Positions 19,335-37,715 of a stretch of 64,000 nucleotides of DNA are shown here, piece after piece. This stretch comes from Planosporangium flavigriseum. Lineage in GTDB: Bacteria; Actinomycetota; Actinomycetes; Mycobacteriales; Micromonosporaceae. Location of the stretch: the NCBI RefSeq assembly GCF_011947225.1, contig NZ_JAATVW010000011.1:124001-188000 (forward strand), written 5' to 3'. Made by a program: the position numbers and the translations under genes. The first letter of the stretch is position 1. Each line of letters opens with the position of its first letter. The notes under the pieces are model-generated. The model was not told the DNA's origin. It was given only the letters and a program-made list of their open reading frames with translations, and searched no databases.

Positions 19335-19386
19335 GGCGAATCGGCACGTACCAACAGGTGAACCGACTCCTCCGGAGGAACAACCT

Positions 19387-20566: not shown

Positions 20567-20612
20567 GATCAGCAAGGACAGGGACTCGAACCCCGAACCC
20601 GCGGGTTAGGAG
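20567..20612 (-). repeat. tRNA-Arg(CCT) 3'-half fragment at the edge of the microcompartment locus
   Basis: On the minus strand this reads as an anticodon loop CTCCTAA, 3' anticodon stem CCCGC, variable loop, a T-arm (CGGGG-TTCGAGT-CCCTG) and part of an acceptor strand. The 5' half of the tRNA is absent: the preceding sequence is the end of the ddrA gene, whose TAA stop lies inside the anticodon loop. This looks like an attachment-site remnant at a tRNA-Arg gene. I find no second copy in the window. Confidence 0.6.
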
Positions 20613-22273
20613 GTAGCGAGTCCATACGCGACGGCGAACCGGTGGCCGAGCGAGCCTGACGCGCCGCCGTCACGGGCCAGCACCGCTCCGGCCGCGACTC
20701 GGCCGGCCGCGACCGCCCCGCGCCCGATCGGCGTGCCCGGCGGCAGCACCTCGGCGAGGGTCGCCAGTATCTCTTCGTCGGCGGCCGGACCGCCGACCAG
20801 CAGCACCGGCCGTTCCCGTTCGGACGAAGGCAGCGCGCTCAACGCCCGGTGGACCGCGACGCCGAGGACCGCCGCCTTGGCCCGGCGGCGTACCCCGCGC
20901 CACTCCGCCGGTGACCAGACGGTCGGCAACGGTACGAGGCCGAGCGGTCCGGTCGCACACAGCCGCCCGACGGTGTCGCCGCCGGCCGGCCGGTCGAGAA
21001 AAATCCGGGTGCCGTCCTCGGTGGTCGCCACGTCGGGCCCCTCGACGCGCATGGCGGGTCCGCGCTTGGCGTACTCGGCGAGCGCCTTGGGTACCTTCAG
21101 CGCGGCCGCTACCACCGCGGTGAGCAGGTCCCCGGCGCCGGCGACCGTCGCGGCGCCGGTGACTCCGATGACGTCGACCGTACCGCCACCGAGGTCGATG
21201 ACGAGCGCGCCGTCCGCGCCCGGGGTGGTGAGCGCGCCGGCCCGCGCCGCCGACGTCTCGGAGGTAACGAGGCGGGCGGGACGGTCGAGCAGCTTTTCGA
21301 GACACGCCACCGGGTCGACCAGGTCCTGCTCGCCCGCCAGGGTGGCCAGCACGAGTTCCGCGTCCGGCGAGCCCCGGCGAAGCTCACGCAGGACGGCCGC
21401 GACGTCGACGGCGGCCAGGTCCCCGACCGCGACGGGTCCGGTGCCGAGGTCGAGGGTGTACGGTCCGCCGTTCGTCGCCTGCGCGTCGGTCAGGTCGACC
21501 GGGCCGTCCCCGGCGTCGACCCACGGCCGGTGATCCTGGGAAGCGGCAACAGGCGGCAGCCCGTACGCCACCACGGCGTTCGAGGCGCCGTCGAGGCTGG
21601 CGGCCACGGCCGCGAGATATCCCGATGAGTCCGCCCCCAGCCCCAGCGAAGCCGCCATCGCGAACGCGTCCGTCACCTTCTGCAGCGCGCGGCCCGGCGG
21701 GCGCACCTCCATGGCCAGCAACCGAGCCGCAGCGGCCGAAGCAGCCGGTACCCCGTCGACGACCGGCAGCGACTGGCGCAGACGAGAACCGATCAGGACC
21801 GCCTCGTCCGACTCGACACAGACGCCGATGACGGCAAGGCCCGCCGACACCAGCCGGTTGATCCGGGCCGCCGCCTCCCGGAATCCCACCGACGCCGGCA
21901 CCACGATCACCTGCGGGCCGTCACCCAGTTGCGCGTCCCGCAAGACCGGCCAGGGCGTACCACACCCGAAGCCCTCGCCGCTCGCCGTCGTGGCGCCCCG
22001 GCGCAGGACCCGCAGCGGTCCGGTGTGGACGGTCGGCGCGGGTACCCGCACGGTCGACGTACGCACCGGCCGGAGCGCGGCCACGTGCACCGCCTCGACG
22101 TCGACCCGAGCCCGGGACGCGGTACGGGCCACCAACGCAGCCGCCGCCGTGATCGACGAAGGCGACCCCTTGGCGCCCCGGGTGGGGGCGCGGTCGGCAG
22201 CTACGACGCCGCCGTCACTGGAGACCAGCACCACCTCGGTGGTGGCATTGCCGATGTCGAGGCCCGCGATCAC
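20606..22273 (-). CDS. ddrA: Diol dehydratase reactivase, large (alpha) subunit
   Basis: A 555-residue chaperone-like ATPase that exchanges damaged cobalamin out of B12 diol dehydratase. The N-terminus I-A-G-L-D-I-G-N-A-T-T-E-V and the later V-I-D-L-G-G-G-T-V-D-V-I are the paired phosphate-binding motifs of the actin-like fold shared by PduG/DdrA. Length is close to family norm (about 600). The small reactivase subunit (DdrB/PduH) is not found anywhere in the window. It ends inside a tRNA-Arg fragment. It lies 14 bp downstream of the dehydratase small-subunit gene and is probably in one operon with it. Confidence 0.85.
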   Translation of the reverse strand: MIAGLDIGNATTEVVLVSSDGGVVAADRAPTRGAKGSPSSITAAAALVARTASRARVDVEAVHVAALRPVRTSTVRVPAPTVHTGPLRVLRRGATTASGEGFGCGTPWPVLRDAQLGDGPQVIVVPASVGFREAAARINRLVSAGLAVIGVCVESDEAVLIGSRLRQSLPVVDGVPAASAAAARLLAMEVRPPGRALQKVTDAFAMAASLGLGADSSGYLAAVAASLDGASNAVVAYGLPPVAASQDHRPWVDAGDGPVDLTDAQATNGGPYTLDLGTGPVAVGDLAAVDVAAVLRELRRGSPDAELVLATLAGEQDLVDPVACLEKLLDRPARLVTSETSAARAGALTTPGADGALVIDLGGGTVDVIGVTGAATVAGAGDLLTAVVAAALKVPKALAEYAKRGPAMRVEGPDVATTEDGTRIFLDRPAGGDTVGRLCATGPLGLVPLPTVWSPAEWRGVRRRAKAAVLGVAVHRALSALPSSERERPVLLVGGPAADEEILATLAEVLPPGTPIGRGAVAAGRVAAGAVLARDGGASGSLGHRFAVAYGLATS

Positions 22274-22286
22274 CCTAGTAACGCGA

Positions 22287-22652
22287 TCACCCTAGTAATC
22301 CGCGCGTGGCGTACCAGCTCGCGGCTTCGCGTACGAACGCCGCGGTGCGCGGCGCACCCTGCTCGTCGAGTCGGCGCGCAAGGGCCTCCAGCTCGTCGGC
22401 GGTGGAGCGGCCGGGTCGCAGCGCCTCGTACGCGGCGAGCACGTCGGCGTCGGGCAGCCGGGCCAGTTCGGCGGCGCGGCCCAGCGCGGAGGCCAGCTGC
22501 GGGTTGCCGTGATTCGCCGCGACCGCAGCCTGCGCGCGCAGGGCCGAGGGGTGGATGCGGACGTCATCGGGGCCGAGCGATCCCGCGCGCAGCGCCTCGA
22601 CGGTGACCTCGTCGAGCGGCCGTCCGGAGTACCCCCGTACCTGCTCAGTCAT
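22287..22652 (-). CDS. pduE: Diol/glycerol dehydratase small subunit
   Basis: A 121-residue small subunit: G-Y-S-G-R-P-L-D-E-V-T-V-E-A-L near the start, H-P-S-A-L-R-A-Q-A-A-V-A, and Y-E-A-L-R-P-G-R-S-T towards the end, all typical of PduE/DhaE. It lacks the roughly 30-residue N-terminal extension that in Salmonella PduE helps localisation to the microcompartment. The start overlaps the end of the large/medium fusion gene by 8 bp, so translation is coupled. Confidence 0.9.
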   Translation of the reverse strand: MTEQVRGYSGRPLDEVTVEALRAGSLGPDDVRIHPSALRAQAAVAANHGNPQLASALGRAAELARLPDADVLAAYEALRPGRSTADELEALARRLDEQGAPRTAAFVREAASWYATRGLLG

Positions 22653-24885
22653 CCATGACCTCCAACGAAAGCTCCTCCGGTGCCGAGCCAATATCGCAGC
22701 ATTCCCGTTCCAGCGCCACGAATGAAACCACACGGGTGTGGTACCTCGCCGTGATGGCGTCCTCCGAGTACGGGTTGAGCACCGGCTCCGGCGTGGCGCC
22801 CTTGGCGTGCCGGGCGGCGTTGACGGCCATCAGACGGTACATCTCGCGGGTGACGTGCGGCGCGACCGAGTACAGCTCCAGGTTGGCCAGCGGCGTGAGG
22901 TCGCGGCGGTGGATGAGCGCGGTCCCCTTGCCTTGCAGGCCGATCGACACACCGGAGCCGGAGAGCTGGGCGGCGGCCAGACCGATCTGCCCTAAGTCGA
23001 TAGAGGACTGTACGCGGACGATCCGACCACGGCAGCCCTCCTCTTCAAGACCGGCCAGCAGTTCGTCGAGGACGTCGAGCACGTCGAGGCCCGAGAGCGT
23101 ACGCCAGACGCTGCGGCCGAGCGCTGGGGAGACGCCGATGACGACCTCCCGCGGGTCGTTCGAAACAGCGGCGGCACCCAAACAAGACAGCCCCGGCCGG
23201 GCATAGGCGGCCTGCTCGGCGCGCAGGTCGGCGACCGACCGCTCCTGGCGGACAGCCGCGATCTCCGCGAGCCGTTCCGGACCCGGGACATAGCCCGTGC
23301 CCGGCCCGGCGTAGTCGTTGGGGTCGGTGACGGCGGACAGGCACCTCATCGACTCGTCGAAGATGGCGGCGGGTTGGAGGTAGTCGCCGGCGACCCGGGC
23401 GCGCAGCATGCCGAGGACCCGTTCGGCTTCCACGGAGAAGCCGCACTCGTCGAGGGCGGCGACGATGTCGAGGCCGGTCAGCCCGCTCTCGCCGATCATG
23501 CGGGCCGCCTGGAGCACCCGTAGCGGGTCGGGCTCGGGCAGGTCCCGGCTGCCGGCCGCGTGGACCACCGCCTCGACGTGTTCGTCGTCGAAGTCGGCCA
23601 GGCCGAGGTGGGCGTACACGGCGCGGACGGCCTCGGCGGCGCGTCTCCGTACGGCCAGAATGTACTCTTCGGTCGGTTGGCGCAGCGCGCCGTCGACGCC
23701 CCAGTCGCGCTGGAGCACCAGGTAGTCGTCGAGGTCCTCGGCGTTGAGGTTGGACGGGCCGAACATGTTGTCGTAGCGCGGGATGCTGCCGAAGCCGGAG
23801 ACGATGAAGTCGGAGCCGGCGAGGAACGTCGGCAGCGTCCGGGCCGTGCGGCGCATGTCGGACTCTGACATCAGGCTGTCGTTGCCGGAGCACGATTCCA
23901 GGCCGCGCAGCATCACCATGAGGTTCTCGTAGTGCAGCTCGAGGACCCCGCCGGGGACGCTCGCGGTGAGCGCGGCGGTGTCGATGCCGCCGTTCTGCAC
24001 GCCCTGCGCGCCGCAGGCCCGGGCGAGGGACACGCAGCGCGATTCGAGGTACAGCATCGAGCGCCCTTCGGCGCCGCCCATCAGCGCCTCGGAGCCGGCG
24101 CCGGACGACAGCCGCATCTTGACGCCACGGGAGGCGTACGCCGCGACGAGGAACGCCTTGGACCACGGGGTGTCGTCGCCGTCGACGAAGACCTGCTCGG
24201 TGCCGTACACGGAGACGGTCTCGGCGTAGGAGACCAGGCCGCGTACGCCGAGTTGGAGTTCGAGGGCCTCCTCGACCGAGCACTGGGTCAGCGCGCCGGC
24301 CGCGGCGACCTGGGAGCCGATGAGGACCGCCACCGCGTTGCTCGGGGCGTCGCCGAAGACCGGCACGGTGGTCTCGAGTTCGCGGAACCCGTACGCGACG
24401 GCGGTGGCCGCGTCGGCGGCGAGCAGCAGCGGGTCGTCGAGCCGGTTGGTGACGTGGGCCTGGTTGGACGGAGTGCGGCGCACGCGCATCTTCGCCAGGG
24501 CGATGGTGATCTCGTACGGCCGGATCTGCCGGACCACCGCGGCGAGCTTGGCCGGCGTCATGCCCGCGACGAGGCGGGTGATCTCGGCTCTCGGCACGGA
24601 CGGGTCCACGATCATGCGGGCGACGGTGACGTCGTCGGTCGCCATCGCCTCCTCGGCGACGGTCAGGTCGAGGCCGTGTTCGGCGATGAACGCGTCGACG
24701 ACGTCGAAGTCCTCGCGGCGCCGCCCGTCGAGTTCGACGACTACCCCGTCGGAGATGACGAGGCTGGGAAGCGGGTCCGCCGGCGACCAGAGCGCCGCCA
24801 GGCCGAGGGACGGGTCTTGTGCGGCCAGCCCGTCGAGGTTGACCGCCCGCCCGTCGAGCATCCGCAGCCGGCCCCAGCCGGTCAT
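22645..24885 (-). CDS. B12-dependent diol dehydratase, large and medium subunits fused
   Basis: One 746-residue chain: residues 1-550 are PduC-like and about 580-746 are PduD-like (V-I-G-V-S-P-A-L-G, then L-S-G-S-G-V-S-I-G-L-Q-G-K-G-T, then L-A-N-L-E-L-Y). Residues matching Klebsiella His143, Glu170, Glu221, Gln296, Asp335 and Ser362 are all present (here His144, Glu171, Glu222, Gln297, Asp336, Ser363). Two substrate-end positions differ: Ser301 is Asp302 and Gln336 is Ser337. The linker at 550-580 replaces the N-terminal encapsulation segment of PduD. The reaction is radical dehydration of a 1,2-diol to an aldehyde; the substrate is uncertain and may be a cationic diol. The start overlaps the amidase stop (ATGA). 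Confidence 0.9.
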   Translation of the reverse strand: MTGWGRLRMLDGRAVNLDGLAAQDPSLGLAALWSPADPLPSLVISDGVVVELDGRRREDFDVVDAFIAEHGLDLTVAEEAMATDDVTVARMIVDPSVPRAEITRLVAGMTPAKLAAVVRQIRPYEITIALAKMRVRRTPSNQAHVTNRLDDPLLLAADAATAVAYGFRELETTVPVFGDAPSNAVAVLIGSQVAAAGALTQCSVEEALELQLGVRGLVSYAETVSVYGTEQVFVDGDDTPWSKAFLVAAYASRGVKMRLSSGAGSEALMGGAEGRSMLYLESRCVSLARACGAQGVQNGGIDTAALTASVPGGVLELHYENLMVMLRGLESCSGNDSLMSESDMRRTARTLPTFLAGSDFIVSGFGSIPRYDNMFGPSNLNAEDLDDYLVLQRDWGVDGALRQPTEEYILAVRRRAAEAVRAVYAHLGLADFDDEHVEAVVHAAGSRDLPEPDPLRVLQAARMIGESGLTGLDIVAALDECGFSVEAERVLGMLRARVAGDYLQPAAIFDESMRCLSAVTDPNDYAGPGTGYVPGPERLAEIAAVRQERSVADLRAEQAAYARPGLSCLGAAAVSNDPREVVIGVSPALGRSVWRTLSGLDVLDVLDELLAGLEEEGCRGRIVRVQSSIDLGQIGLAAAQLSGSGVSIGLQGKGTALIHRRDLTPLANLELYSVAPHVTREMYRLMAVNAARHAKGATPEPVLNPYSEDAITARYHTRVVSFVALERECCDIGSAPEELSLEVMDD

Positions 24886-25904
24886 CGCCGCTTCCACACT
24901 GCTGCCGCAGCCCGCAGCCGGGCGTGGATCCCCCCGTACGGCTCGACGCCGGGCAGGTGCGCCTTGGCCACCTTGGCCACACAGGTGTAGTCGTTGTCGA
25001 CGACGTTGGCGATCGGCGCGAGCGAGGTCTGCGAGACGAGCTGGTACGCGTCGAGAATGGACAGTTGCAGCTCGGCGGCTACCCAGCCGACCATGTCGGC
25101 CTGGCTGATGCGGAACGCGTCCTCGAGCGGGCGGGCCGAGCCGGTCGACATGACGTACTCGTCGGTCTCGAGCCGTGGCCACGGCGTCGGCACGCCCTTG
25201 ATGAGGTCGATCAGGACGACGGTGTCCATGGCGGTCTCGACGGCGACGCCGCAGGTCTCGCCCTCGCCCTGCCGGGCGTGGCCGTCGCCGAAGCTGAACA
25301 GGGCGCCCTCGACGTTGACGCCGAGGTAGCAGGTCGCGCCGGCGCGCATCTCCGGGGTGTCCATGTTGCCGCCCCATGAGCCGGGGGTGAGCGACGAGCG
25401 CGCCTCGCCCAGCGGCGGCGCCACCCCGACGGTGCCGTGCATCGGGTCGAGCGGCAGTTCGACGACCAGGTCGCTGTCGCGGGCTTCGTACCGCACGACC
25501 CCGGCCGCCCGGTCGATGCCGTAGATCCAGGTGCGTTCGCCCAGCGCGGCCTGGAGCGTGGCCGTACGCGGGGTCGAGGTGAGCGCGCCGAAGAACGGGA
25601 CGGTGGTCGACACGCCCCACGACTCGCGTGGGGTGATGGAGACGAAGTGCACGACGAGCGTGTCCCCGGGCTCGGCGCCCTCGACGTAGAACGGCCCGGT
25701 CTGCGGGTTGAGGTAGCGGGGGTCGGTGACCTGGGTGGGCAGGTCGTCGACCGTACGCACCGCGCCGTTGAAGCAGTCGCGGGTCCAGGTCGACAGGAAG
25801 GTGCCCGGGGCGATCTGGGCCACCGGTTCCGCCCCGCCGAACGTGTAGACGAGCTGGCTCGCCGGGGCGTCGGGGTCGGGCGCGTACTCGAAAAACGAAG
25901 CCAC
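24882..25904 (-). CDS. Acetamidase/formamidase-family amidase
   Basis: A 340-residue FmdA/AmdA-family protein. Family features visible: T-G-P-F-Y-V-E-G-A-E-P-G-D-T-L-V-V near residue 70, H-G-T-V-G-V-A-P in the middle, G-G-N-M-D-T-P-E-M with the metal-site aspartate, and F-S-F-G-D-G-H-A-R-Q-G-E-G-E. These enzymes release ammonia or an amine from simple amides. It is the first gene of the operon carrying the diol dehydratase, with a four-base overlap, so the amide it cleaves may supply the amine or diol used by the locus. The substrate is not inferable from sequence alone. Confidence 0.88.
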   Translation of the reverse strand: MASFFEYAPDPDAPASQLVYTFGGAEPVAQIAPGTFLSTWTRDCFNGAVRTVDDLPTQVTDPRYLNPQTGPFYVEGAEPGDTLVVHFVSITPRESWGVSTTVPFFGALTSTPRTATLQAALGERTWIYGIDRAAGVVRYEARDSDLVVELPLDPMHGTVGVAPPLGEARSSLTPGSWGGNMDTPEMRAGATCYLGVNVEGALFSFGDGHARQGEGETCGVAVETAMDTVVLIDLIKGVPTPWPRLETDEYVMSTGSARPLEDAFRISQADMVGWVAAELQLSILDAYQLVSQTSLAPIANVVDNDYTCVAKVAKAHLPGVEPYGGIHARLRAAAAVWKRR

Positions 25905-25931
25905 TGGTCGCTTCCTCCGGTCAGGGGGTGT

Positions 25932-25961
25932 GGTGGGTGGCCGGGGCCCCGGCCACCCACC
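25932..25961. terminator. 30-bp GC palindrome between permease and amidase genes
   Basis: A perfect palindrome centred at 25946/25947 lies between the permease stop (25970) and the amidase start (25904), both on the minus strand. It would give a very stable hairpin. No T-run follows, so it may attenuate rather than end transcription, lowering amidase/dehydratase expression relative to the permease. Confidence 0.5.
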
Positions 25962-25969
25962 CCACGGTT

Positions 25970-27514
25970 TCAGTCACGCTCGTGAGTGTCCTCCAGGACG
26001 ATGCGCCCGATGGTCTCGTACCGGCGCGGGTTGCGGGCCCGGAAGTACAGCGCCAGCGCGATACCGGCGGCGAAGACTGCCACGACGAGGTACGGCGTGA
26101 GCTTGAACAGCAGGGTCTTCGCCGCGGCGCCGGCGGCGAAGTCCTTGTTCACCCACAGCAGGTAGACCACGTAGAGCATGCCGAGGCCACCGATGAGCGG
26201 CGCCACCAGGGTGCGGAACCAGTTCGCCGTCTCGGGGTGGTTCTTGCCGACGTGGAAGTACCCGATGACCCCGAACGCGCACAGCGCCTGGACGATCAGG
26301 ATCGCCATGGTGCCGAGGATGGCCAGCAGGGCGTACAGGTCGCCGTACGGGTCCTTGTTGAAGGCCAGGAAGCCGAGCACCAGCACGGTCGCCAGGCCGG
26401 TCTGCACGAACGAGGCGACGTGCGGGGAGCCGTGCTTGCCGTGGGTACGGCCGATCGTGCGCCGGAACCCGGGCAGCAGGTCCTCGCGGCCGAGGGCGTA
26501 GATGTAGCGGGCGGCGCAGTTGTGGAACGCCATGCCGCAGGCGAACGAGCCGGTCATCAGCAGGACGCTGAACAGGTCGACGGCCCACGATCCGACGAGT
26601 TCCTTGGTCGGGCCGAAGAAGATGTCGCCGGCGGTCGCGGTGTCCTGCCCCAGCTTGATCGCGTTGGCCGGGCCGGTGCCGGCGATGGCCATCCAGGAGA
26701 CGAACACGTAGAACAGGCCGATGCCGACGACGGAGAGCATCGTCGCCCGCGGGATGACCCGCTTCGGGTCGCGGGACTCCTCGCCGTACATGGCGGTCGA
26801 CTCGAAGCCGACCCACGACCAGAACGCGAAGAACAGGCCGATGCCCGCGGTCGCGCCGGCCACTCCGGTCGCCGACTTGAACGCGTTGAGCGGGTTGATG
26901 GACTCCACCGCCAGGCCCTCCGGGCCGCCGCCGTGGAACAGCACCGCGAGCGCCATCAGCGCGAGCATCAGGATCTCGGTGAGCAGGAAGAAGCCGAGCA
27001 CCTTGGCAGTGAGGTTGATGTCGTAGTAGGCGAGCACGGCGTTGAGCGCCAGCATGACCAGCGCGAAGACGATCCACGGCACCTTGGTGTCGGTGTACCG
27101 CTGCACCGTCGACTGGGCGAAGAAGCTGAAGATGCCGACGAGCGACGCCTCGAACACGATGTAGGCCATCGTGATGAGCGCGCCGGCGCCCATGCCGACG
27201 ACCCGGCCCAGGCCGTGCGAGATGTAGCCGTAGAACGCGCCGGTGGCGGTGATGTGCTTGGCCATGGCGGAGTAGCCGAGCGCGAACAGGCTCAGCACGA
27301 TCGTCGCCACGAGGTAGCCGGCGGGCGCGTACGAGCCGTTGCCGAAGCCGACCGCGATCGGCACGTTGCCGACCATGGCGGTGATCGGGGCGGCTGTCGC
27401 CACCGCCATGAAGATGACGCCGATGATGCCGACGGCGTTCTTCTTTAATCGCTGGACCTCGCCGGCACCGGAGGCCCCGGTCCCGACGCTGCCAATCATC
27501 TCGTTGGTGCTCAC
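25970..27514 (-). CDS. APC-family amino acid/amine permease
   Basis: A 514-residue permease with twelve or so hydrophobic segments. The first carries the APC-family substrate-binding bend (A-V-A-T-A-A-P-I-T-A-M), and the sixth region contains F-A-F-W-S-W-V-G-F-E-S-T-A-M-Y-G-E-E. It is divergent from the microcompartment genes and leads the amidase/dehydratase operon. RMM-type loci usually carry an APC permease, and uptake of the amino-alcohol substrate is the expected role. The intergenic region with the aminotransferase gene contains GGCAGACCA-type sites. Confidence 0.88.
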   Translation of the reverse strand: MSTNEMIGSVGTGASGAGEVQRLKKNAVGIIGVIFMAVATAAPITAMVGNVPIAVGFGNGSYAPAGYLVATIVLSLFALGYSAMAKHITATGAFYGYISHGLGRVVGMGAGALITMAYIVFEASLVGIFSFFAQSTVQRYTDTKVPWIVFALVMLALNAVLAYYDINLTAKVLGFFLLTEILMLALMALAVLFHGGGPEGLAVESINPLNAFKSATGVAGATAGIGLFFAFWSWVGFESTAMYGEESRDPKRVIPRATMLSVVGIGLFYVFVSWMAIAGTGPANAIKLGQDTATAGDIFFGPTKELVGSWAVDLFSVLLMTGSFACGMAFHNCAARYIYALGREDLLPGFRRTIGRTHGKHGSPHVASFVQTGLATVLVLGFLAFNKDPYGDLYALLAILGTMAILIVQALCAFGVIGYFHVGKNHPETANWFRTLVAPLIGGLGMLYVVYLLWVNKDFAAGAAAKTLLFKLTPYLVVAVFAAGIALALYFRARNPRRYETIGRIVLEDTHERD

Positions 27515-27535
27515 CTGTTCCCCTCTCGGTCACGA

Positions 27536-27679
27536 CAGACCAGCGGAGCGTTGGATCCGCAGCGCTGTGACCGCGGCCACAGCATGGTGCAGGGATCGTG
27601 ACACCAATGGTCTGGTTACACAAGGGGCTGGTCAGCCCAGAAATGGTTCGTGGCAGACCATTGACTGTTTTGGTCTGCC
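27536..27679. promoter_or_regulatory. Divergent control region of the microcompartment locus with GntR-type sites
   Basis: Between the permease and aminotransferase genes there are four TGGTCTG/CAGACCA elements: 27536-27542, 27608-27614, and a perfect inverted pair GGCAGACCA (27652-27660) and TGGTCTGCC (27671-27679) spaced 10 bp apart. HutC-type GntR proteins bind related GGTCT-AGACC sequences. The locus encodes such a protein at 34830, whose own upstream region has a partial match. Confidence 0.55.
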
Positions 27680-27742
27680 CGGTTCATTCTTGGTCCAGCC
27701 GACGCCCGATCCCGGGACGGCGCCAGCCCTCGGAGGTGGTGG

Positions 27743-29029
27743 GTGCACGACTACGGTGCGTTCTCCTACGCGTCCAAGGACGAGATGATCGGCAAGTCCA
27801 AGGAGTTCTGGAACCCGGACAAGACCCAGTTCTGGCAGGACTCCGGCGTCGACCTCGTCATCGACCGGCGCGAGGGCTACTACCTGTGGGACATGCACGG
27901 CCGGCGGCTGATCGACGTCCACCTCAACGGCGGCACGTACAACCTCGGCCACCGCAACCCCGAAGTTGTTGCCGCCGTGACCGCGGCCATGGGCCACTTC
28001 GACATCGGCAACCACCACTTCCCGTCGCTCGCCCGTACCGCCCTCGCCGAAGCCCTCATCAAGAGCGCACCCGCCGGACTGACCAAAGTGGCCTACGGGT
28101 CAGGCGGCGGCGAGGCCATCGACATCGCGCTCAAGACCGCGCGGCACACCACGCAGAAGCGGAAGATCGTCTCGATCGTCAAGGCGTACCACGGCCACAC
28201 CGGCCTCGCCGTCGGCGCGGGCGACCAGCGCTTCTCCGAACTGTTCCTCTCCGACCGGCCGGAGGAGTTCCCGCAGGTGCCGTTCAACGACCTCGACGCG
28301 ATGGAGCAGGCGCTCCGCGGTCGGGACGTCGCCGCGGTCATCATGGAGACCATCCCGGCCACGTACGGCTTCCCGCTTCCCGAGCCGGGCTACCTGGAGG
28401 CCGTCAAGGCGCTCTGCGAGCGGTACGACGCCCTGTACATCGCCGACGAGGTGCAGACCGGTCTGATGCGTACCGGCGAGATGTGGGGCATCACCAAGCA
28501 CGGCATCTCCCCCGACATCCTCGTCACCGGCAAGGGCATCTCCGGGGGCATCTACCCGATCAGCGCCGTCCTGATGAGCGAGCGCGCCGCGGGGTGGCTG
28601 CGCGAGGACGGCTTCGGCCACATGTCCACGTTCGGCGGCGCCGAACTGGGCTGCATCGCCGCGCTCAAGACGCTCGAGATCTGCGGCCGGCCCGAGGTCC
28701 GCACGATGGTCCACTACATCTCGGACCTGATGCAGTCGGGGCTCGCCGACATCCAGCGCGACTACCCCGACTGGTTCACCGGCGTGCGCGCCAACGGCGT
28801 CGTCATGGGCCTGGAGTTCAACCACCCGCAGGGCGCCAAGTACGTCATGAAGCACCTGTACGAGACCGGGGTCTGGGCCATCTTCTCCACGCTCGACCCG
28901 ACGGTCCTGCAGTTCAAGCCCGGCATCCTGCTCACCCCGGCGCTGGCCGAGGAAATCCTGGACCGCACGGAGGTCGCTATCGGCAAGGCCTGCGCCGAGG
29001 TGCGCGGCCGCGGACGGAGGGTGCGCTAG
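27743..29029 (+). CDS. Class III PLP aminotransferase of the microcompartment locus
   Basis: A 428-residue aminotransferase, GTG start. Class III features: G-G-G-E-A-I-D-I-A (cofactor phosphate region), A-Y-H-G-H-T-G, I-A-D-E-V-Q-T-G before the PLP region, and the lysine in T-G-K-G-I-S-G-G-I-Y-P. In the RMM microcompartments of mycobacteria an aminotransferase of this class belongs to the 1-amino-2-propanol degradation set, together with the dehydrogenase, kinase and aldehyde dehydrogenase seen here. It may remove the amino group from aminoacetone or an amino-aldehyde. Its stop adjoins the aldehyde dehydrogenase start. Confidence 0.85.
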   Translation: MHDYGAFSYASKDEMIGKSKEFWNPDKTQFWQDSGVDLVIDRREGYYLWDMHGRRLIDVHLNGGTYNLGHRNPEVVAAVTAAMGHFDIGNHHFPSLARTALAEALIKSAPAGLTKVAYGSGGGEAIDIALKTARHTTQKRKIVSIVKAYHGHTGLAVGAGDQRFSELFLSDRPEEFPQVPFNDLDAMEQALRGRDVAAVIMETIPATYGFPLPEPGYLEAVKALCERYDALYIADEVQTGLMRTGEMWGITKHGISPDILVTGKGISGGIYPISAVLMSERAAGWLREDGFGHMSTFGGAELGCIAALKTLEICGRPEVRTMVHYISDLMQSGLADIQRDYPDWFTGVRANGVVMGLEFNHPQGAKYVMKHLYETGVWAIFSTLDPTVLQFKPGILLTPALAEEILDRTEVAIGKACAEVRGRGRRVR

Positions 29030-30610
29030 ATGCCGCAGCCGTTGGAATACCTCGCCGAGCCGGCCGGGGTCCCCCGCGCCCGCCAGATGCTCCAGCAGGC
29101 GCAGTGGGCCGCCCGCGCGTTCGCCGGGTACGACCGCGCGAGCGTGCTGCGCATCGCCGAGGCGGTCGCCGACGCCGCAGCCGCCAAGGCCCGGCACTAC
29201 GCCGAGTGGGCCGTCCGGGAGACCGGCTTCGGCGTCGTCGAACACAAGGTCGTCAAGAACGAGGCGTGCTCGCGCGGCATCTTCCAGACGTACCGCGACA
29301 CCGACCTGGTCACCCCGCGCGTCGACGCTTCGCGGAAGTTGGTCTCCGTGCCGCGGCCGGCGGGGGTGGTCCTCGCGCTGACGCCGTCGACCAACCCGGT
29401 GGCGACGGTCTACTTCAAGACGATGCTGGCGCTGCTGACCCGCAACGCCGTCGTCATCAGCCCGCACCCGATGGCGAAGGAGTGCTGCGCCGACGCGGCC
29501 CGCATGATGGCCGCCGCCGCCGTCGCCGCCGGCGCGCCGGAGGGCGTCATCCAGGTCGTCGACGAGCCGTCCGTCCCGCTCATCAACGCGCTGATGACCG
29601 ACGAGCGCACCTCGGTCATCGTCGCGACCGGCGGCACCCCGGTCGTGCGCTCGGCGTACTCCTCCGGCAACCCGGCCATCGGCGTCGGCCCCGGCAACGT
29701 GCCGGTCCTGGTCGACGCGAGCGCCGACCTCGCCGCCGCGGCCAAGCGGATCGTGGCGTCGAAGGCGTTCGACAACTCCGTGCTCTGCACCAACGAGAGC
29801 GTCCTCATCGTCGAGGAGTCGGTCGCCGACCGGCTGCTCGCCGCGATGAAGCGTGAGGGGGCGCTGCTCCTCGACTCCGACGGCGCGCGGCGGCTGCGGG
29901 AGTACATGTTCGGAAACGGCCACCTCAACACCGAGGTCGTCGGCAAGCCGGCGGCCTGGATCGCCGACCGGGCCGGGGTACGGGCGGGCGCGAAGACGAC
30001 CGTGCTGCTGGCGCCGTTCGATCTCGTCGTACCCGAGGAGCCACTCGCCCACGAGAAGCTCTCGCCGGTCCTCGGCGTCGTCCGGGTACCCAGCGCCGCC
30101 CGCGGCATCGACGCCGCCCGGGCGGTGGTCCGCATCGCCGGCGCCGGCCACTCGGCCGCGATCCACTCCAGCGACCCGGCCACGATCATGGCGTACGCGG
30201 CGAGCGTCCCCGTCCTGCGGGTGTCGGTCAACGTCGGCAACTCCACCGGAAGCTCCGGCCTGGAGACCAACCTCGCGCCGACCATGACGGTCGGTACCGG
30301 GTTCGTCGGACGCAGCTCGCTCGGCGCCAACCTCGAGCCGAAGAACCTCGTGAACTGGACGCAGATCGCCTACAACGCCGACCCGCGCGAGGTGATGCCG
30401 AGCTTCACCGGCATCGTGCCGTGGGCCGCGCCGCGCGGCCCGGTCCCGCCGTACCCGGTCGCCAGCAACGCGGCCGGCGTTCTTAAGGCCCCGCCTGCGA
30501 CGCTCCAGCCGGCCGCCAGCGACCTCGCTGGGACGGCCACCGCCGACGAACTGCGCGAGCACGTGCGCCGGCTGATCGTCGAAGAGCTCTCCCACTTCGT
30601 CAAGAACTAA
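29030..30610 (+). CDS. Microcompartment aldehyde dehydrogenase with C-terminal encapsulation-type helix
   Basis: A 526-residue enzyme of the CoA-acylating PduP/EutE/AdhE type, with T-P-S-T-N-P-V-A-T-V, A-T-G-G-T-P-V-V-R-S-A-Y-S, G-V-G-P-G-N-V-P, and catalytic cysteine 253 in N-S-V-L-C-T-N-E-S. After a Pro/Ala-rich linker (about 475-503) the last 20 residues, E-L-R-E-H-V-R-R-L-I-V-E-E-L, form an amphipathic helix of the kind that targets enzymes to shells. Its product is probably an acyl-CoA, though RMM family members may work without CoA. It is followed 13 bp later by the first shell gene. Confidence 0.88.
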   Translation: MPQPLEYLAEPAGVPRARQMLQQAQWAARAFAGYDRASVLRIAEAVADAAAAKARHYAEWAVRETGFGVVEHKVVKNEACSRGIFQTYRDTDLVTPRVDASRKLVSVPRPAGVVLALTPSTNPVATVYFKTMLALLTRNAVVISPHPMAKECCADAARMMAAAAVAAGAPEGVIQVVDEPSVPLINALMTDERTSVIVATGGTPVVRSAYSSGNPAIGVGPGNVPVLVDASADLAAAAKRIVASKAFDNSVLCTNESVLIVEESVADRLLAAMKREGALLLDSDGARRLREYMFGNGHLNTEVVGKPAAWIADRAGVRAGAKTTVLLAPFDLVVPEEPLAHEKLSPVLGVVRVPSAARGIDAARAVVRIAGAGHSAAIHSSDPATIMAYAASVPVLRVSVNVGNSTGSSGLETNLAPTMTVGTGFVGRSSLGANLEPKNLVNWTQIAYNADPREVMPSFTGIVPWAAPRGPVPPYPVASNAAGVLKAPPATLQPAASDLAGTATADELREHVRRLIVEELSHFVKN

Positions 30611-30623
30611 GAGGACCGACACC

Positions 30624-31226
30624 GTGGCCGAACTCCGCTCGTTCATCTTCATCGACCGGCTGCAGCCGCAGACCATGTGCTATCTCGGCACGTGGATCCG
30701 CGGCACGCTGCCACGCTCGAGCATGGCCTCGCAGATCATCGAGATCGCGCCCGGCCTCGACATCGAGCCGCTGACCGACGTCGCGGTCAAGCACGCGGAG
30801 GTCGGCGCCGGCATCCTCGTGGTGGAGCGCCAGTTCGGCTACCTGGAGATCCACGGCCGTACCGACGAGGTCAAGGCGGCCAGCGCCGCCGTCCTCGACG
30901 CGCTGGGCGCCGTCGCCACCGACGCGATGCGGCCGAAGATCCTGGCCAGCACCATCATCTCCAGCATCGACCAGCAGCACGCCTTCCTGATCAACCGCAA
31001 CAAGATGGGCTCGATGGCGCTGCCCGGAGAAACGCTGTTCGTCATGGAGATGCAGCCCGCCTCGTACGCGATCCTCGCGACCAACGAGGCCGAGAAGGCG
31101 GCGAACATCAAGGTCGTCGACTACCGGATGATCGGCGCCACCGGGCGGGTGTACCTCACCGGCAAGGAGGCCGACGTACGGCAGGCGGCGGAGGCGGCCG
31201 AGACGGCACTGCAGGAGCTGTCATGA
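30624..31226 (+). CDS. BMC-T shell protein (tandem BMC domains), first copy
   Basis: A 200-residue shell protein of two BMC domains that assembles as a trimer to form hexagonal tiles. Domain 1 (residues 3-95) holds I-L-V-V-E-R-Q-F-G-Y-L-E-I-H-G and domain 2 (100-198) holds R-N-K-M-G-S-M-A-L-P-G-E-T and Y-R-M-I-G-A-T-G-R-V-Y-L-T-G. It is homologous to the second BMC-T at 32310, so the two arose by duplication. RMM loci of mycobacteria have exactly two BMC-T genes. GTG start; overlaps the next gene by four bases. Confidence 0.92.
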   Translation: MAELRSFIFIDRLQPQTMCYLGTWIRGTLPRSSMASQIIEIAPGLDIEPLTDVAVKHAEVGAGILVVERQFGYLEIHGRTDEVKAASAAVLDALGAVATDAMRPKILASTIISSIDQQHAFLINRNKMGSMALPGETLFVMEMQPASYAILATNEAEKAANIKVVDYRMIGATGRVYLTGKEADVRQAAEAAETALQELS

Positions 31227-31747
31227 CCACCGACCCCCTCGCCGGCGACCTGCTGCGGGCCCTGGTCCGCGAGGTGCTGACCGACATCGTGCGGGAGTCA
31301 CTGCCCGCGGCGAGTCCGGCTGGCTACGAAGCGCCGCCGGCCGACGCGGCCCCGTCCGCCATCATGCCCACGGCGCGCGGCGGCTACGCCCCGGTCGCCG
31401 GTGCACCGGTCCAGAGTGCGCGCGTGGAGGACGTCGTCCTCCGTACCGATGAAGATCTTCAGGGTTTCGCGCTCCGGCTGCTCGGGCTCTTCGAGAACCC
31501 GAAGGCCCGCGAAGATGTCCGCAGTGGACGGTTGCGGTTCCGGCTGGCCGGAACGGCCGTCGCCCCGGGGGCCGCGGCGCCGGCCGGGGCCGTCCAGCGG
31601 ATCGAGAAGGGCGCGGTGACCGAGCGGCACATCAAGGCGGCCGCCGCCGCGGGCGCCCGCCTCGCGCTCGGGCGCGGCGCCGTGCTCACGCCGCTCGCCC
31701 GCGAAAAGGCCCGGGCCCTCGGGGTCCACGTCGAGAAGGAGCGGTAG
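31223..31747 (+). CDS. Microcompartment-associated protein with N-terminal targeting helix
   Basis: A 174-residue protein of unknown activity. Residues 6-28 (L-A-G-D-L-L-R-A-L-V-R-E-V-L-T-D-I-V) form an amphipathic helix like known encapsulation peptides, followed by a Pro/Ala-rich linker (about 30-65). A small domain at 70-110 and a C-terminal R-I-E-K-G-A-V-T-E-R-H-I then L-T-P-L-A-R-E-K-A-R-A-L-G-V complete it; the last segment recurs in other microcompartment proteins. It may be a cargo scaffold or linker. Starts at an ATG overlapping the BMC-T stop. Confidence 0.7.
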   Translation: MTTDPLAGDLLRALVREVLTDIVRESLPAASPAGYEAPPADAAPSAIMPTARGGYAPVAGAPVQSARVEDVVLRTDEDLQGFALRLLGLFENPKAREDVRSGRLRFRLAGTAVAPGAAAPAGAVQRIEKGAVTERHIKAAAAAGARLALGRGAVLTPLAREKARALGVHVEKER

Positions 31748-32002
31748 ATGCTGCACGCCGTCGTGACCGGCAACGTCTGGGCCACCAAGCGCGTCGAGGG
31801 ACTGCCCCACGGCGCCTTCCTCGAAGTGCAGATCGAGGGTACGGACTCCCGGCTGATCGCCTTCGACGTCCTGGGCAGCGGGGTCGGTGAGCGGGTGCTC
31901 ATCGCCACCGGATCGGTCGCCGCCGCCTGGTTCCCCGGCAAGCCGCCGCCCATCGACGCGCTGATCATCGGCGCCATCGACGACCCGGCGAGCGCCGGCT
32001 AG
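31748..32002 (+). CDS. BMC-P pentameric vertex protein (EutN/CcmL family)
   Basis: An 84-residue vertex protein: G-N-V-W-A-T-K-R-V near the start, F-D-V-L-G-S-G-V-G-E-R-V-L-I-A-T-G-S and D-A-L-I-I-G-A-I-D at the end, all family hallmarks. Five copies cap each vertex of the icosahedral shell; its presence means the shell can close. It begins directly after the preceding stop (TAGATG). Confidence 0.95.
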   Translation: MLHAVVTGNVWATKRVEGLPHGAFLEVQIEGTDSRLIAFDVLGSGVGERVLIATGSVAAAWFPGKPPPIDALIIGAIDDPASAG

Positions 32003-32044
32003 TCCCCTGTCCACTCCCGTCCCACGACAGAAAGAGGAAGACCA

Positions 32045-32326
32045 ATGGCCCAGATGGCGATCGGCATGATCGAAACCAAGGGTTACGTGGCCGCGCTCGC
32101 GGCGGCCGACGCGATGGTCAAGGCCGCCAACGTCACCATCGTCGACCGCCAGGAGGTCGGCGATGGCCTCGTCGCGGTGGTCATCACCGGTGACGTCGGC
32201 GCCGTGAAGGCCGCCTCGGAGGCCGGCGCGGAGACCGCGTCGCAGGTCGGCGAGCTGGTCTCGGTCCACGTGATCCCGCGCCCGCACAGCGAGCTCGGCC
32301 GGCACTTCAATGTCTCAGGGGACTGA
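32045..32326 (+). CDS. BMC-H hexameric shell protein
   Basis: A 93-residue canonical BMC domain: [20 protein letters not shown] near the start, then [13 protein letters not shown], and V-H-V-I-P-R-P-H at the end. It is the standard facet tile of the shell. The start has a good AAAGAGGAAG site. Its last 17 bp overlap the start of the second BMC-T gene. Confidence 0.96.
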
Positions 32327-32957
32327 CGGTACCGAACTGCGGGTCTACCTGCTGATCAAGGATCTGCAGCCGCAGTTCGCCGCGTACCTGGGCACGCCGA
32401 CACGGGCGCGGGGCTACCCGCCGTTCGTCGGCAACCACGCTCTCATCGTCGAGGTGGCGCCCGCGCTCGCCATCGAGCGGGTCATCGACCTGGCCCTCAA
32501 GTCGGTACCCACCGTGGAGCCGGGGATCCTCTTCGTCGAGCGGCAGTTCGGCGTGCTGGAGGTGCACGGCCCCGACCTCGACGACGTCGTGGCCGCCGGG
32601 GAGGCGATCCTCGCCGGCATCGGTCGCAGCGCCATCGACCAGTTGCGCCCGCGCATCCTGTACAGCGATGTCATCGAGAACATCACCGACCAGCACGCCG
32701 TCATCGTGAACCGCAACCGGCAGGCCTCGATGGTCATGCCGGGCGAGACGCTGCTGGTGTACGAGATGACGCCGGCCCTGTTCGCGGCGGTCGCCGCCAA
32801 CGAGGCCGAGCGGGTCGCGCCGGAACTGACGCTGGTCGACGTACAGATGATCGGCGCCGCCGGGCGGATCTACCTCGCGGGCGACCTCGACGCCGTGAAC
32901 CGGGCGCGCGCCGAGATCACCCGAGTCCTGGAAGGCGTTGAGGGCCGCACGCATTGA
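32310..32957 (+). CDS. BMC-T shell protein, second copy
   Basis: A 215-residue tandem-BMC protein similar to the one at 30624 (shared [25 protein letters not shown], and [11 protein letters not shown]). Its extended N-terminus and slightly different pore loops (R-N-R-Q-A-S-M-V-M) may give a different pore. It starts inside the BMC-H gene with no clear ribosome site, so expression likely depends on translational coupling. Together with BMC-H, BMC-P and the other BMC-T it makes the full RMM shell set. Confidence 0.92.
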
Positions 32958-32970
32958 GGAGGTGACACCG

Positions 32971-33948
32971 GTGGAGTCCCCACAGGCGCAGTACGAGGCG
33001 TTCGCACAGGTGGCGCTGCCCGAGTACGGGTTCTCCCCCGACGCGCGGGTACGGCTGCTCAACCTGTCGGAGAACGGCACCTTCCTGGTGCAGGAGGCCG
33101 ACCGGCGGGCGGTCCTGCGCGTGCACCGCGACGGCTACCACTCCCGGCAGGCCATCGAGTCGGAGCTGAACTGGCTCGAGGCGCTGCGCAGCGAGGCCGG
33201 GGTACGCACGCCGGAGACGCTGCGCGCGGTCGACGGCCGCCGCGTCGTCGACCTGCGGGTCGGCGACCGGTACCGCCACGGCGTGCTGTTCGAGTGGCTG
33301 CCCGGCGTCGAACCGCCCACCGACGACCTGGTCACCCAGTTCGAGGTGCTGGGCGGCATCACGGCCCGCATGCACCTGCACACCCGCTCCTGGCGGCGGC
33401 CGGCCGACTTCACCCGGTTCTCCTGGGACGACGAGACGACGCTCGGGGCCACCCCGCACTGGGGCCGCTGGCAGGACGGCATGGCCATCGGCGCGGCGGA
33501 GCAGCGGATCCTGTCCGCAGCGGCCGACCTGGTCCTGCGGCGGCTGGCGGCGTTCGGCAAGGGCCCGGACCGCTTCGGCCTGGTACACGCCGACATGCGG
33601 CTGGCCAACCTGCTGCTCGACGGTGACCAGGTCTACGTCATCGACTTCGACGACTGCGGTTTCAGCTGGTACCTCTACGACCTGGCCACCGCCGTGTCCT
33701 TCATCGAGGACGACCCGCGCGTTCCGGAGTGGACGGACGCCTGGGTGCGGGGCTACCGCCGGGTGTGCGACCTGAGCAGCGCCGACGAGCAGGAGATCGG
33801 CACGTTCATCATGCTGCGCCGGCTCCTGCTGGTGGCGTGGATCGGCTCGCACAGCACGACCGATCTCGCACAGGAGATGGGCGCGGAGTTCACCCGCGTC
33901 TCCTGTGACCTGGCGGAGCAGTACCTGTCCACCACCCCCCACCCGTAA
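32971..33948 (+). CDS. Aminoglycoside-phosphotransferase-fold kinase, probable amino-alcohol kinase
   Basis: A 325-residue APH-fold kinase: N-lobe with L-S-E-N-G-T-F-L-V and V-L-R-V-H-R (nucleotide lysine replaced by arginine in this segment), catalytic loop [13 protein letters not shown], and metal-binding I-D-F-D-D-C-G. The GTG at 32971, preceded by GAGGAGGT, is chosen over a TTG 33 bp earlier. RMM loci carry an APH-type kinase proposed to phosphorylate 1-amino-2-propanol. It lies between the shell genes and the SDR dehydrogenase and has no reason to be an antibiotic-resistance gene. Confidence 0.85.
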
Positions 33949-33962
33949 GGATTGAGGTTCGC

Positions 33963-34724
33963 ATGCTCACCTCCCTCGAAGGGCGCTCGGTCATCGTGAC
34001 CGGCGGCAGCAAGGGCATCGGCAAGGGCATCGCCCGGGTCTTCGCCCGCGTCGGCGCCCGCGTGGTCATCACCGGACGCGACGAGAACGCGCTGCGTACG
34101 GCCGCCGACGAGCTGGGCGCCGGGGTCACCTGGGTCAGCGGCGACATCGCCGACCCGGCCGGCTGCCGCGCCATGGCCGAAGCCGTCGTCGAGCGCAACG
34201 GCGGCATCGACGTGCTCTGCGCCAACGCCGGGGTGTTCCCGTCGGCCGCCCTCGACACCATGACCCCCGACGACCTCGAACACGTGCTCGGCACCAACCT
34301 CAAGGGCACCTTCTACACCGTCCAGGCGTGCCTGCCGGCGCTGGAGCGCTCCGGGCGCGGGCGGATCGTCGTCACCTCCTCCATCACCGGCCCGATCACC
34401 GGGTACCCGGGGTGGAGCCACTACGCCGCGAGCAAGGCCGGCCAGCTGGGCTTCGTCCGTACGGCCGCCATCGAGCTGGCCGGCAAGGGCATCACGGTGA
34501 ACGCGGTGCTGCCCGGCAACATCGCCACCGAAGGCCTCGACGGGATGGGCGAGGACTACCAGCGCTCGATGGCGGCGTCGATCCCGCTCAAGCGGCTCGG
34601 CAAGGTCGAGGACATCGGGTACGCCGCGCTGTACTTCGCCAGCGACGAAGCCGGTTACGTCACCGGCCAGACGATCGTCATCGACGGGGGCCAGGTGCTG
34701 CCGGAGACGCTCGAGGCTCTGTAA
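33963..34724 (+). CDS. Short-chain dehydrogenase, probable 1-amino-2-propanol dehydrogenase
   Basis: A 253-residue classical SDR: cofactor motif [10 protein letters not shown], structural N-A-G, catalytic Ser in T-S-S-I-T-G-P, Tyr/Lys in H-Y-A-A-S-K-A-G, and a C-terminal G-G-Q-V-L-P. The M. smegmatis RMM locus contains an SDR shown to oxidise S-1-amino-2-propanol to aminoacetone, and the position here is the same, next to the kinase and before GntR. The substrate assignment is by context. 3-oxoacyl reductase activity is the usual alternative for such proteins. Confidence 0.8.
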
Positions 34725-34770
34725 CGGAAGCCGCACTGTTCCAGGAGTGGCTGTATCGGCCACGACGCGC

Positions 34771-34790
34771 TACGGCAGACTTTGGTCAGG
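34771..34790. promoter_or_regulatory. Partial GntR-type site before the gntR gene
   Basis: GGCAGAC (34774-34780) followed by TTTGGTCAGG resembles half of the GGCAGACCA/TGGTCTGCC operator found before the aminotransferase gene. It lies about 55 bp upstream of the GntR start, so autoregulation is plausible. The match is incomplete. Confidence 0.3.
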
Positions 34791-34829
34791 AGACAATCGG
34801 ACCGGGTACGAGGAGGAGAAGTCGCGATC

Positions 34830-35621
34830 ATGACGGAGTCGTCGCTGGCGGGCAGCCCGGTCGCCGAGGAGGTCAGGCGCAAGATCCTGGCCGAGATCAG
34901 CTCCGGTGCGCTTGCCCCCGGGCAGCGGCTCACCAGTGAACGCGAACTCGCGCGGCAACTCGGGGTGAGCCGCGCCACCCTCCGCCACGCGCTCGGGTCC
35001 CTGGTGCAGGCGGGCATCCTGCGCCGGGTGGCGGGCCGGTCCGGGGGCACCTTCGTGGCGCACGCCAAGGTGGAGCGCGACCTCACCCACGTGGACGGGC
35101 TGCCGGCGTACCTACAGCGCCAGGGCTTCTCGGCCGGCTCCCGAGTACTCGCGACGGCCCTGGTGCAGGCGGACGACGCGACCCGCACCGCCCTGGCGCT
35201 GCCCGAGGACGCCCTCGTCCACGACATCGTCCGCGTACGGCTGGCCGACGGCAGCCCGATCTCACTGGACCACGCACGCTTCCCGGTCGATCTCTTCCCC
35301 GACCTGCTCGAGCAGCCGTTGGGCGGTTCGCTGTACGAACTGCTCGACCAGGTCTACGACGTGCGCCCGGCCGTGTCCGACGAGCTGATCGAGGTGGTGG
35401 CGGCCACCCCGCGGGAAGCTCAGGTGCTCGACGTCGCCCGCGACGCCCCGCTGCTGTCCGTCACCCGGGTGACCCGGGACTCCAACGGCCGGCGGTTCGA
35501 GTTCTCACACGACCTCTTCCGGGCCGACCGGACCCGCATCTCGGTGAGCTCCGCCGGGCGCGGCCTGCGTGCGAACGCCAGTACCGACGGCAACGTGGTC
35601 GAGCTACGCGCCTGCGGCTAG
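34830..35621 (+). CDS. GntR/HutC-family regulator of the microcompartment locus
   Basis: A 263-residue regulator: N-terminal GntR winged helix (L-T-S-E-R-E-L-A-R-Q-L-G-V-S-R-A-T-L-R-H-A-L) and a C-terminal UTRA ligand-binding domain ending with R-V-T-R-D-S-N-G-R-R-F-E-F-S. The start at 34830 follows GAGGAGG. As the last gene of the shell operon region it probably represses it until its ligand, perhaps the amino-alcohol or a phosphorylated form, is present. Its stop overlaps that of the convergent ferritin-like gene by four bases. Confidence 0.9.
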   Translation: MTESSLAGSPVAEEVRRKILAEISSGALAPGQRLTSERELARQLGVSRATLRHALGSLVQAGILRRVAGRSGGTFVAHAKVERDLTHVDGLPAYLQRQGFSAGSRVLATALVQADDATRTALALPEDALVHDIVRVRLADGSPISLDHARFPVDLFPDLLEQPLGGSLYELLDQVYDVRPAVSDELIEVVAATPREAQVLDVARDAPLLSVTRVTRDSNGRRFEFSHDLFRADRTRISVSSAGRGLRANASTDGNVVELRACG

Positions 35622-36359: not shown

Positions 36360-36425
36360 TTGACAGGCGCGAACAGCCAGCGCAGGCTAGTTGCGAATCG
36401 CGCGTGCTGTTGCGCATGCCGAGAC
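36360..36425 (+). promoter_or_regulatory. soxB promoter with tandem operator-like sites
   Basis: TTGACA at 36360 is a good -35. Thirty bp later comes GTTGCGAATCGCGCGTG (36390-36406), and a second site GTTGCGCATGCCGAGAC (36409-36425) starts exactly 19 bp after the first. Both match the glyA site at 11 of 17 positions, with GTTGCG-x-AT fully kept. The layout is the same as at the ferredoxin-reductase promoter. Confidence 0.55.
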
Positions 36426-36453
36426 ACTCAAACCCAGAGACGGAAGGACGCCG

Positions 36454-37680: not shown

Positions 37681-37715
37681 GCAGATAGACCGAGCAGATT
37701 AGGAGCAAGCACGCC

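Follow-up and report, generated by a model that had tools for sequence, protein, structure and literature searches.

An RMM2-type metabolosome locus of Planosporangium flavigriseum and the possible amine-bearing substrate of its diol dehydratase

What does an RMM2-type metabolosome do with the diol dehydratase (DD) that is encoded beside it? This question was raised in 2014, and no later answer was found in the papers we examined. We addressed it in a 64,000-nucleotide window of Planosporangium flavigriseum (contig NZ_JAATVW010000011.1, positions 124,001 to 188,000), where positions 20606-35621 hold the RMM shell and core enzyme genes on the plus strand and, divergent from them, a permease, an amidase and a B12-dependent DD with its reactivase on the minus strand. 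The reading we propose, to which we give about even weight for and against as a whole, is an RMM2 locus with a functionally coupled DD that would act in the cytosol on an amine-bearing diol and feed an encapsulated aldehyde dehydrogenase.

The assignment to the RMM2 type is close to certain. The conserved RMM core order from permease to GntR regulator is present in the window, and the DD genes lie on the strand opposite to this core, matching the RMM2 definition. In the passages of Axen et al. 2014 (PMC4207490) on these loci, the main difference between RMM1 and RMM2 is that DD genes are absent from the former and present, on the opposite strand, in the latter; its authors think that the compartment has no use for the DD and give a bifunctional compartment as the alternative. 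RMM1 and RMM2 are also both used as types in the corresponding part of Sutter et al. 2021 (PMC8217296), and section 14 of a later comparative study (PMC6620236) predicts a lactaldehyde route for the RMM core with no mention of a DD. The window shares with RMM2, as described in 2014, the permease-to-GntR core, shell genes, aminotransferase, aldehyde dehydrogenase, phosphotransferase, short-chain dehydrogenase (SDR) and opposite-strand DD, and differs from RMM1, as described there, in having the DD at all. It also carries an FmdA/AmdA amidase, whereas that description has RMM2 without the RMM1 hydrolases, which may or may not be of this amidase family. Open reading frames and Pfam searches recovered every gene that the initial annotation had listed, each in its place. 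That annotation had further argued for novelty on the ground that a diol dehydratase has no place in RMM loci; we rejected this argument, since RMM2 is already described in PMC4207490 and the locus type itself is not new.

DD genes accompany RMM genes well beyond this window. Among 394 genomes of the same class, with BMC-T query matches counted at E<=1e-20, 31 had a BMC-T match, 30 had a DD family match and 23 had both, which places a DD in 23/31 BMC-T genomes vs 7/363 others (Fisher p 1.4e-24, uncorrected for kinship). The two lie on one contig, about 4-11 kb apart, in 19 of the 23 double-positive genomes and on different large contigs in G222, while in G554, G585 and G607 they are on separate contigs, so that the distance between them is not measurable. 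Two of the 23 (G537 and G607) are counted on a single match each, to the second BMC-T type at 46-49% identity. Among the eight shell-only genomes, G546, G586 and G701 have one weak BMC-T match each, at 40-45% identity, and may not be RMM. Across the 249 genomes of the order, a DD occurs in 6/8 with a strong first-BMC-T match (at least 70%) vs 24/241 others. The initial annotation had treated the pairing of RMM BMC-T and DD genes as one that relatives should share, and linkage proved to be conserved, far above chance.

Rearranged loci keep the DD. We named the best 80 of the 238 RMM loci found, 31 of which have a DD large subunit inside the fetched stretch. Most of these 31 show the arrangement of the window, with the DD divergent behind the permease; it lies downstream on the same strand in L029 and L048, downstream on the opposite strand in L054 and L066 (L051 is alike but cut), and in the Fodinicurvata locus L088 (the same as L202) it follows the shell genes without a change of strand. 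In the alphaproteobacterial loci L192-L195 the DD is found upstream on the aminotransferase strand, just outside the first 10 kb, with the kinase of L194 on the other strand. An amidase gene (at least 55% identity) is present in nine of the 18 fully covered loci with a DD vs none of the 21 without (Fisher p 2.3e-4, again uncorrected for kinship). In a concatenated core tree of 54 loci the window groups, with modest support (92), near RMM1 loci that mostly lack a DD; DD presence changes at least five times on this tree, leaving room for both gain and loss. Some labels of metagenome-assembled genomes in this set (L026, L028, L074, L054) look doubtful: RMM loci from bins named 'Bifidobacterium breve' group with uncultured actinobacteria, and L054, labeled 'Spirochaetaceae', has a DD large subunit identical to that of class genome G597.

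The DD also keeps its enzymatic partners where the shell is missing. Thirteen DD loci without an adjoining RMM match were fetched, and in nine of them (L156-L159, L162, L163, L165-L167) a permease, the DD set with its reactivase, an aminotransferase and a kinase are clustered. BMC-T, protein X, BMC-P and BMC-H had no match in these nine loci, no BMC-domain gene was found anywhere in the nine genomes, and no full-length aldehyde dehydrogenase was found in the nine clusters. The SDR was seen in eight and the GntR regulator in six (the stretches of L157-L159 end before them), and the amidase in five. Aminotransferase and kinase adjoin in seven of the nine, where 9 to about 150 bp lie between the matches; a wider gap of about 0.7-0.8 kb in L166 and L167 holds short, gapped aldehyde-dehydrogenase-like stretches (L166:4508-4990 and L167:16658-17413; best E 7e-7 and 5e-10 vs the locus aldehyde dehydrogenase), which are probably remnants of a lost shell cassette. 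In a phylogeny of 79 large subunits of the DD, the shell-less entries are scattered among the shelled ones, with four changes, at least three of them forced by well-supported branches; this tree has long branches and a root whose position is not fixed. Together, co-occurrence, retention after rearrangement, the shell-less modules and the amidase association place the DD in the same pathway, and we conclude that it is very probably a functionally coupled part of one amine-catabolic module (permease, kinase, aminotransferase-fold enzyme, SDR) rather than a chance neighbor.

Two other arrangements were seen among the loci without shell genes. The gene in the amidase-DD gap of L156 was considered as a replacement aldehyde dehydrogenase and rejected, as its product is an NHL-repeat protein kinase; at the corresponding position of L157 there is an open frame of matching length. 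An apparent operon at L160:4949-14265 combines a Zn alcohol dehydrogenase, a non-acylating-type aldehyde dehydrogenase, an APC permease, a DD with Asp at position 302, a small subunit and a reactivase, with no shell genes.

If the DD belongs to the pathway, its substrate pocket should bear on the substrate. We compared 92 distinct DD sequences (141 loci before duplicate removal; partial ones excluded) in glycerol dehydratase numbering. The set QHEEQDS (Q142, H144, E171, E222, Q297, D336, S363), residues that we take to be catalytic or metal-binding, is intact in 92/92. Asp302 occurs in 73 of the 92, together with Leu268, and none of these 73 has Gln337, the residue there being Ala in 51, Asn in 12, Thr in six and Ser in four. 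The other 19 have Ser302, with Gln337 in 18; neighbors were read for three of them (L171, L203, L212). One alphaproteobacterial DD, L212 (G1030), is intermediate, combining Ser302, Ala337 and Leu268, and no RMM genes were found in 20 kb around it. Positions 302, 341, 366 and 381 split the two groups in every row, and position 151 in all but one. The window DD has Asp302 and Ser337 and not the canonical Ser302/Gln337 pair, and each of the 31 DDs from named RMM loci is of the Asp302 kind. The Asp302 group spans RMM DDs, shell-less modules and alphaproteobacterial DDs that are only about 50% identical, and the tree of large subunits does not settle whether Asp302 had a single origin.

The changed positions can be related to the substrate through published models, in which, according to the review PMC7674605, the glycerol C3-OH points in one conformation to Ser301 (302 in our numbering). 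The Asp302/337 change would therefore sit at the third carbon of the substrate. By its residues, the window DD is a member of a distinct subfamily in which the substrate pocket is altered and the catalytic set intact, and the carboxylate at 302 suits an amine, although a hydroxyl could be bound there as well. None of the open-access papers listed by searches on RMM2 and on amino-diol DDs deals with the Asp302 signature.

Transporter genes near the DDs give a second line of evidence on the substrate. Neighbors were read for 58 Asp302 loci, and 48 of these include a transporter of the amino-acid/amine type. An APC permease is present in 28 of the 31 named RMM loci with a DD (not seen in L029, L062 and L088), in all nine shell-less loci, and in five DD loci lacking both kinase and aminotransferase (L160, L168, L197-L199). 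Six alphaproteobacterial loci have a PotABCD-like polyamine transporter between DD and SDR, assigned in L193 by a family search with all models below their cut-offs and in L192, L194, L195, L213 and L214 by related genes. In four of these loci (L193:10010-10744, and L192, L195 and L214) a class-I glutamine amidotransferase/Peptidase_C26-like gene stands between DD and transporter, a possible stand-in for the actinobacterial amidase. Seven of the 58 loci had no transporter that we could find. In three shell-less operons an ABC transporter of the sugar/glycerol-phosphate type accompanies DD, SDR, kinase and an aminotransferase of another kind; in L169 and L170 the latter shares about 26% identity with the window aminotransferase. 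Because it unites amine and polyol and so fits both transporter kinds, 3-amino-1,2-propanediol is the simplest candidate.

We therefore put forward, tentatively and at somewhat less than even confidence, an amine-bearing vicinal diol as the DD substrate, with 3-amino-1,2-propanediol as our best guess. The initial annotation had held that the DD implies an additional or different substrate and had considered an amino-diol; that suggestion gains plausibility from the clade-specific pocket change and from amine-type transporters and a kinase/aminotransferase/SDR set that recur with the shell or without it.

A different substrate is assumed in a two-entry propanal metabolosome, in which the DD would convert 1,2-propanediol to propanal, the kinase and phospho-lyase would convert 1-amino-2-propanol to propanal, and one encapsulated aldehyde dehydrogenase would serve both. 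The two routes would meet at a single aldehyde, a bifunctional compartment is raised in the RMM passages of PMC4207490, the DD catalytic residues are intact, and an RMM2-bearing Paracoccus yeei strain is noted in a 2021 survey (PMC8156839) as growing on 1,2-propanediol, although the authors who studied P. yeei infer that propylene glycol is handled through lactate dehydrogenase (PMC5773746). The pocket argues otherwise: its C3 side is changed in all 73 Asp302 DDs, whereas the 19 others keep Ser302 and 18 of these Gln337, and in the kinetic data given in PMC7674605 an S301A/Q336A double mutant raises the Km for 1,2-propanediol from 0.06 to 2.4 mM. The transporters, mostly amine-type with three sugar-type, also point away from propanediol, and we consider this explanation unlikely, at roughly one chance in a handful.

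Asp302 could instead hydrogen-bond an extra hydroxyl, so that the DD would act on glycerol or a longer polyol and pass its product to the same aldehyde dehydrogenase. Ser301 is the very residue that faces the glycerol C3-OH in the models of PMC7674605, and the Agrobacterium and Shinella operons have a UgpC-type transporter; both points count in its favor. It does less well with the amine-type transporters at 48/58 Asp302 loci, most of which come with the kinase/aminotransferase set thought to act on amino alcohols, and we rate it as less likely still. The reading favored in the 2014 discussion of RMM2 (PMC4207490), a DD that is an independent neighbor not used by the compartment, fits its opposite strand, the lack of a recognized encapsulation peptide, the many RMM loci without a DD and the genomes with a DD alone, yet it is highly improbable given DD genes that are packed behind the RMM permease in the window, lie on the same strand in alphaproteobacteria, L029, L048 and L202 and are kept after rearrangement, and stay with kinase, aminotransferase and permease where the shell is absent.

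Several observations weigh against the coupled, amine-bearing diol reading itself. Asp can bind hydroxyls, so Asp302 is no proof of an amine, and the three operons with sugar-type transporters (Agrobacterium L169, Shinella L170, and L196) fit a polyol too. The diagnostic His341 is replaced by Glu in the Asp302 subfamily, at a position that is only presumed to line the pocket. The window permease matches only general APC models, all below the NCBIfam cut-offs. An enzyme disposing of the aldehyde was not found in the shell-less loci, for which no dedicated search of the genomes was made. RMM loci can do without the DD: among 39 with full coverage, 21 have none within 10 kb, four of these having one just beyond, and whole-genome searches of 18 DD-less RMM genomes (the remaining 17 plus L081) found no DD in ten, a Ser302 DD only in two and an Asp302 DD elsewhere in six. 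Conversely, the DD is alone in four mycobacterial loci (L161, L164, L200, L201), with no APC permease found nearby. Finally, the candidate operator described below was not found above relocated or separate DDs, where the best scores were 8-10 of 12, the range of most shuffled intergenic sequences.

How might a DD of this kind work with a shell? Encapsulation helices were judged by inspection, with termini compared in 19 chosen loci. A conserved amphipathic helix (LREELRRLIxEELxxIIKG-like) forms the C-terminus of the aldehyde dehydrogenase, and protein X begins with such a helix where its start is well placed; both look like encapsulation peptides. None was recognized at the N-terminus of the DD small subunit, at the N-terminus of the large subunit or at the large-medium junction, and for this reason we infer a cytosolic DD with the aldehyde dehydrogenase as shell cargo. 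The initial annotation had spoken of a route inside a shell, which is not supported for the DD itself.

In the proposed pathway, the amidase may free the amine from an N-acyl form, and the cytosolic DD would dehydrate a vicinal diol with an amine at C3, turning 3-amino-1,2-propanediol into 3-aminopropanal. The RMM core would take 1-amino-2-propanol or aminoacetone to an aldehyde through the SDR, the kinase and a phospho-lyase-like enzyme. Behind the shell, the encapsulated acylating aldehyde dehydrogenase would convert aldehydes to acyl-CoA, and the GntR protein would regulate both halves through an inverted repeat between them. The 1-amino-2-propanol activity of kinase and SDR is predicted from sequence closeness to the chains 6ef6 and 6ci8/6ci9.

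The shared control region contains a perfect 7+7 inverted repeat, CAGACCA-N10-TGGTCTG with TTGAC inside, at 27654..27677, a candidate GntR operator that is the sole zero-mismatch match in the window. Allowing up to three mismatches, the window has three matches vs 2.5 expected, which is chance level. A related element, ACCATTGAC-N5-TGGTC, recurs in the permease/aminotransferase gap of several RMM1 and RMM2 loci, and scores of at least 10 of 12 were reached in 26/55 regions vs 21/300 shuffles. As the operator was not found above relocated DDs, control of both halves by GntR through this repeat is likely for the divergent arrangement only.

On the minus strand, the DD genes follow the APC-superfamily permease of the RMM core (25970..27514; AA_permease_2 107 bits), a gene that adjoins the aminotransferase in relatives too. 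After a 65 bp gap comes the FmdA/AmdA-family amidase (24882..25904; PF03069 85 bits; nearest solved chain 5ubu, 215 bits), then the fused large and medium DD subunits (22645..24885; 746 aa; Dehydratase_LU 793 bits, Dehydratase_MU 84 bits), whose residues 6-515 align without gaps with the Klebsiella pneumoniae glycerol dehydratase. The small subunit (22287..22652, start approximate; Dehydratase_SU 111 bits) and a large-subunit-like reactivase (20606..22273; DDR 119 bits, DDR_swiveling 72 bits; PduG model 170 bits against a cut-off of 400) complete the set, with no small reactivase subunit recognized adjoining the latter. Amidase and DD overlap by 4 bp, DD and small subunit overlap by 8 bp, and small subunit and reactivase are 13 bp apart, values that depend on the start codons we picked; with such tight packing, the DD is probably cotranscribed with the permease.

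On the plus strand, a class III aminotransferase-fold enzyme (27743..29029; Aminotran_3 246 bits) comes first; its scores to the 25 NCBIfam models shown all fell short of their cut-offs, and sequence searches did not separate aminotransferase from phospho-lyase. The acylating-type aldehyde dehydrogenase with the C-terminal encapsulation-type helix follows (29030..30610; the top NCBIfam models, at 431 and 380 bits and below cut-off, describe acylating enzymes). The shell genes encode a BMC-T of the RMM clade (30624..31226; 323 bits to 5l39, 'RMM microcompartment shell protein MSM0275'), a BMC-P vertex protein (31748..32002; EutN_CcmL 68 bits), a BMC-H (32045..32326; BMC 95 bits) and a second BMC-T (32310..32957; CcmP model 190 bits, below cut-off; no Pfam match) that is 50% identical to the first over residues 3-190 of the first. 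Between the first BMC-T and BMC-P lies protein X (31223..31747), a conserved RMM protein present in 76/80 named loci, with an N-terminal amphipathic helix and then an alpha/beta domain (alignment of 31; model mean pLDDT 80, pTM 0.40); it matched no family in Pfam or NCBIfam, and a fold search of the PDB gave nothing at E<=0.001.

An APH-fold kinase (32938..33948; 340 bits to chain 6ef6), an SDR (33963..34724; 346 bits to chains 6ci8/6ci9) and a GntR/UTRA regulator (34782..35621, true start possibly further in; GntR 58 bits, UTRA 129 bits) end the core. We take 6ef6 to be the Mycobacterium smegmatis (S)-1-amino-2-propanol kinase and 6ci8/6ci9 to be the M. smegmatis 1-amino-2-propanol dehydrogenase, functions on which the PDB titles are silent. 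The nearest solved chains of the first BMC-T, the kinase and the SDR point to RMM1/AAUM of M. smegmatis and Rhodococcus; of these chains, 5l39 is named RMM and the others are presumably so linked.

Set beside PDU and canonical diol/glycerol dehydratase, the window has in common the large, medium and small DD parts, the reactivase, an acylating-type aldehyde dehydrogenase and the seven catalytic residues. Unlike them, its DD has a large-medium fusion, no recognized encapsulation peptide such as PDU has on the medium subunit, Asp302 and no Gln337, and no PduL match exists in the genome. Whole-genome searches found this single DD, no PF06130 match for a PduL-type phosphotransacylase, one PduO-type adenosyltransferase outside the locus and three matches to the methylmalonyl-CoA mutase family; of the PDU partners that the initial annotation had called absent, the PduL-type phosphotransacylase has no match genome-wide and the adenosyltransferase is encoded elsewhere. 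Glycine-betaine-type ABC transporter genes (OpuAC, BPD_transp, ABC) and sarcosine oxidase-like genes (DAO; SO_alpha/GCV_T) flank the locus at 16240-20364 and 36391-40783, which places it within a stretch of amine/osmolyte metabolism.

More broadly, and a shade more tentatively than for the substrate of this one enzyme, the Asp302 enzymes may form a separate kind of B12-dependent dehydratase for amine-bearing vicinal diols, and RMM2 may be a two-substrate amino-alcohol organelle in which shell and aldehyde dehydrogenase are a removable cassette around a conserved cytosolic pathway. The pocket signature and the natural shell-less counterparts make the role of the DD directly testable: a single enzyme assay would decide its substrate, and matched shelled and shell-less strains would show what encapsulation contributes to the same pathway. 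If the amine reading is true, it would extend a textbook family of B12 radical enzymes to a further class of substrates.

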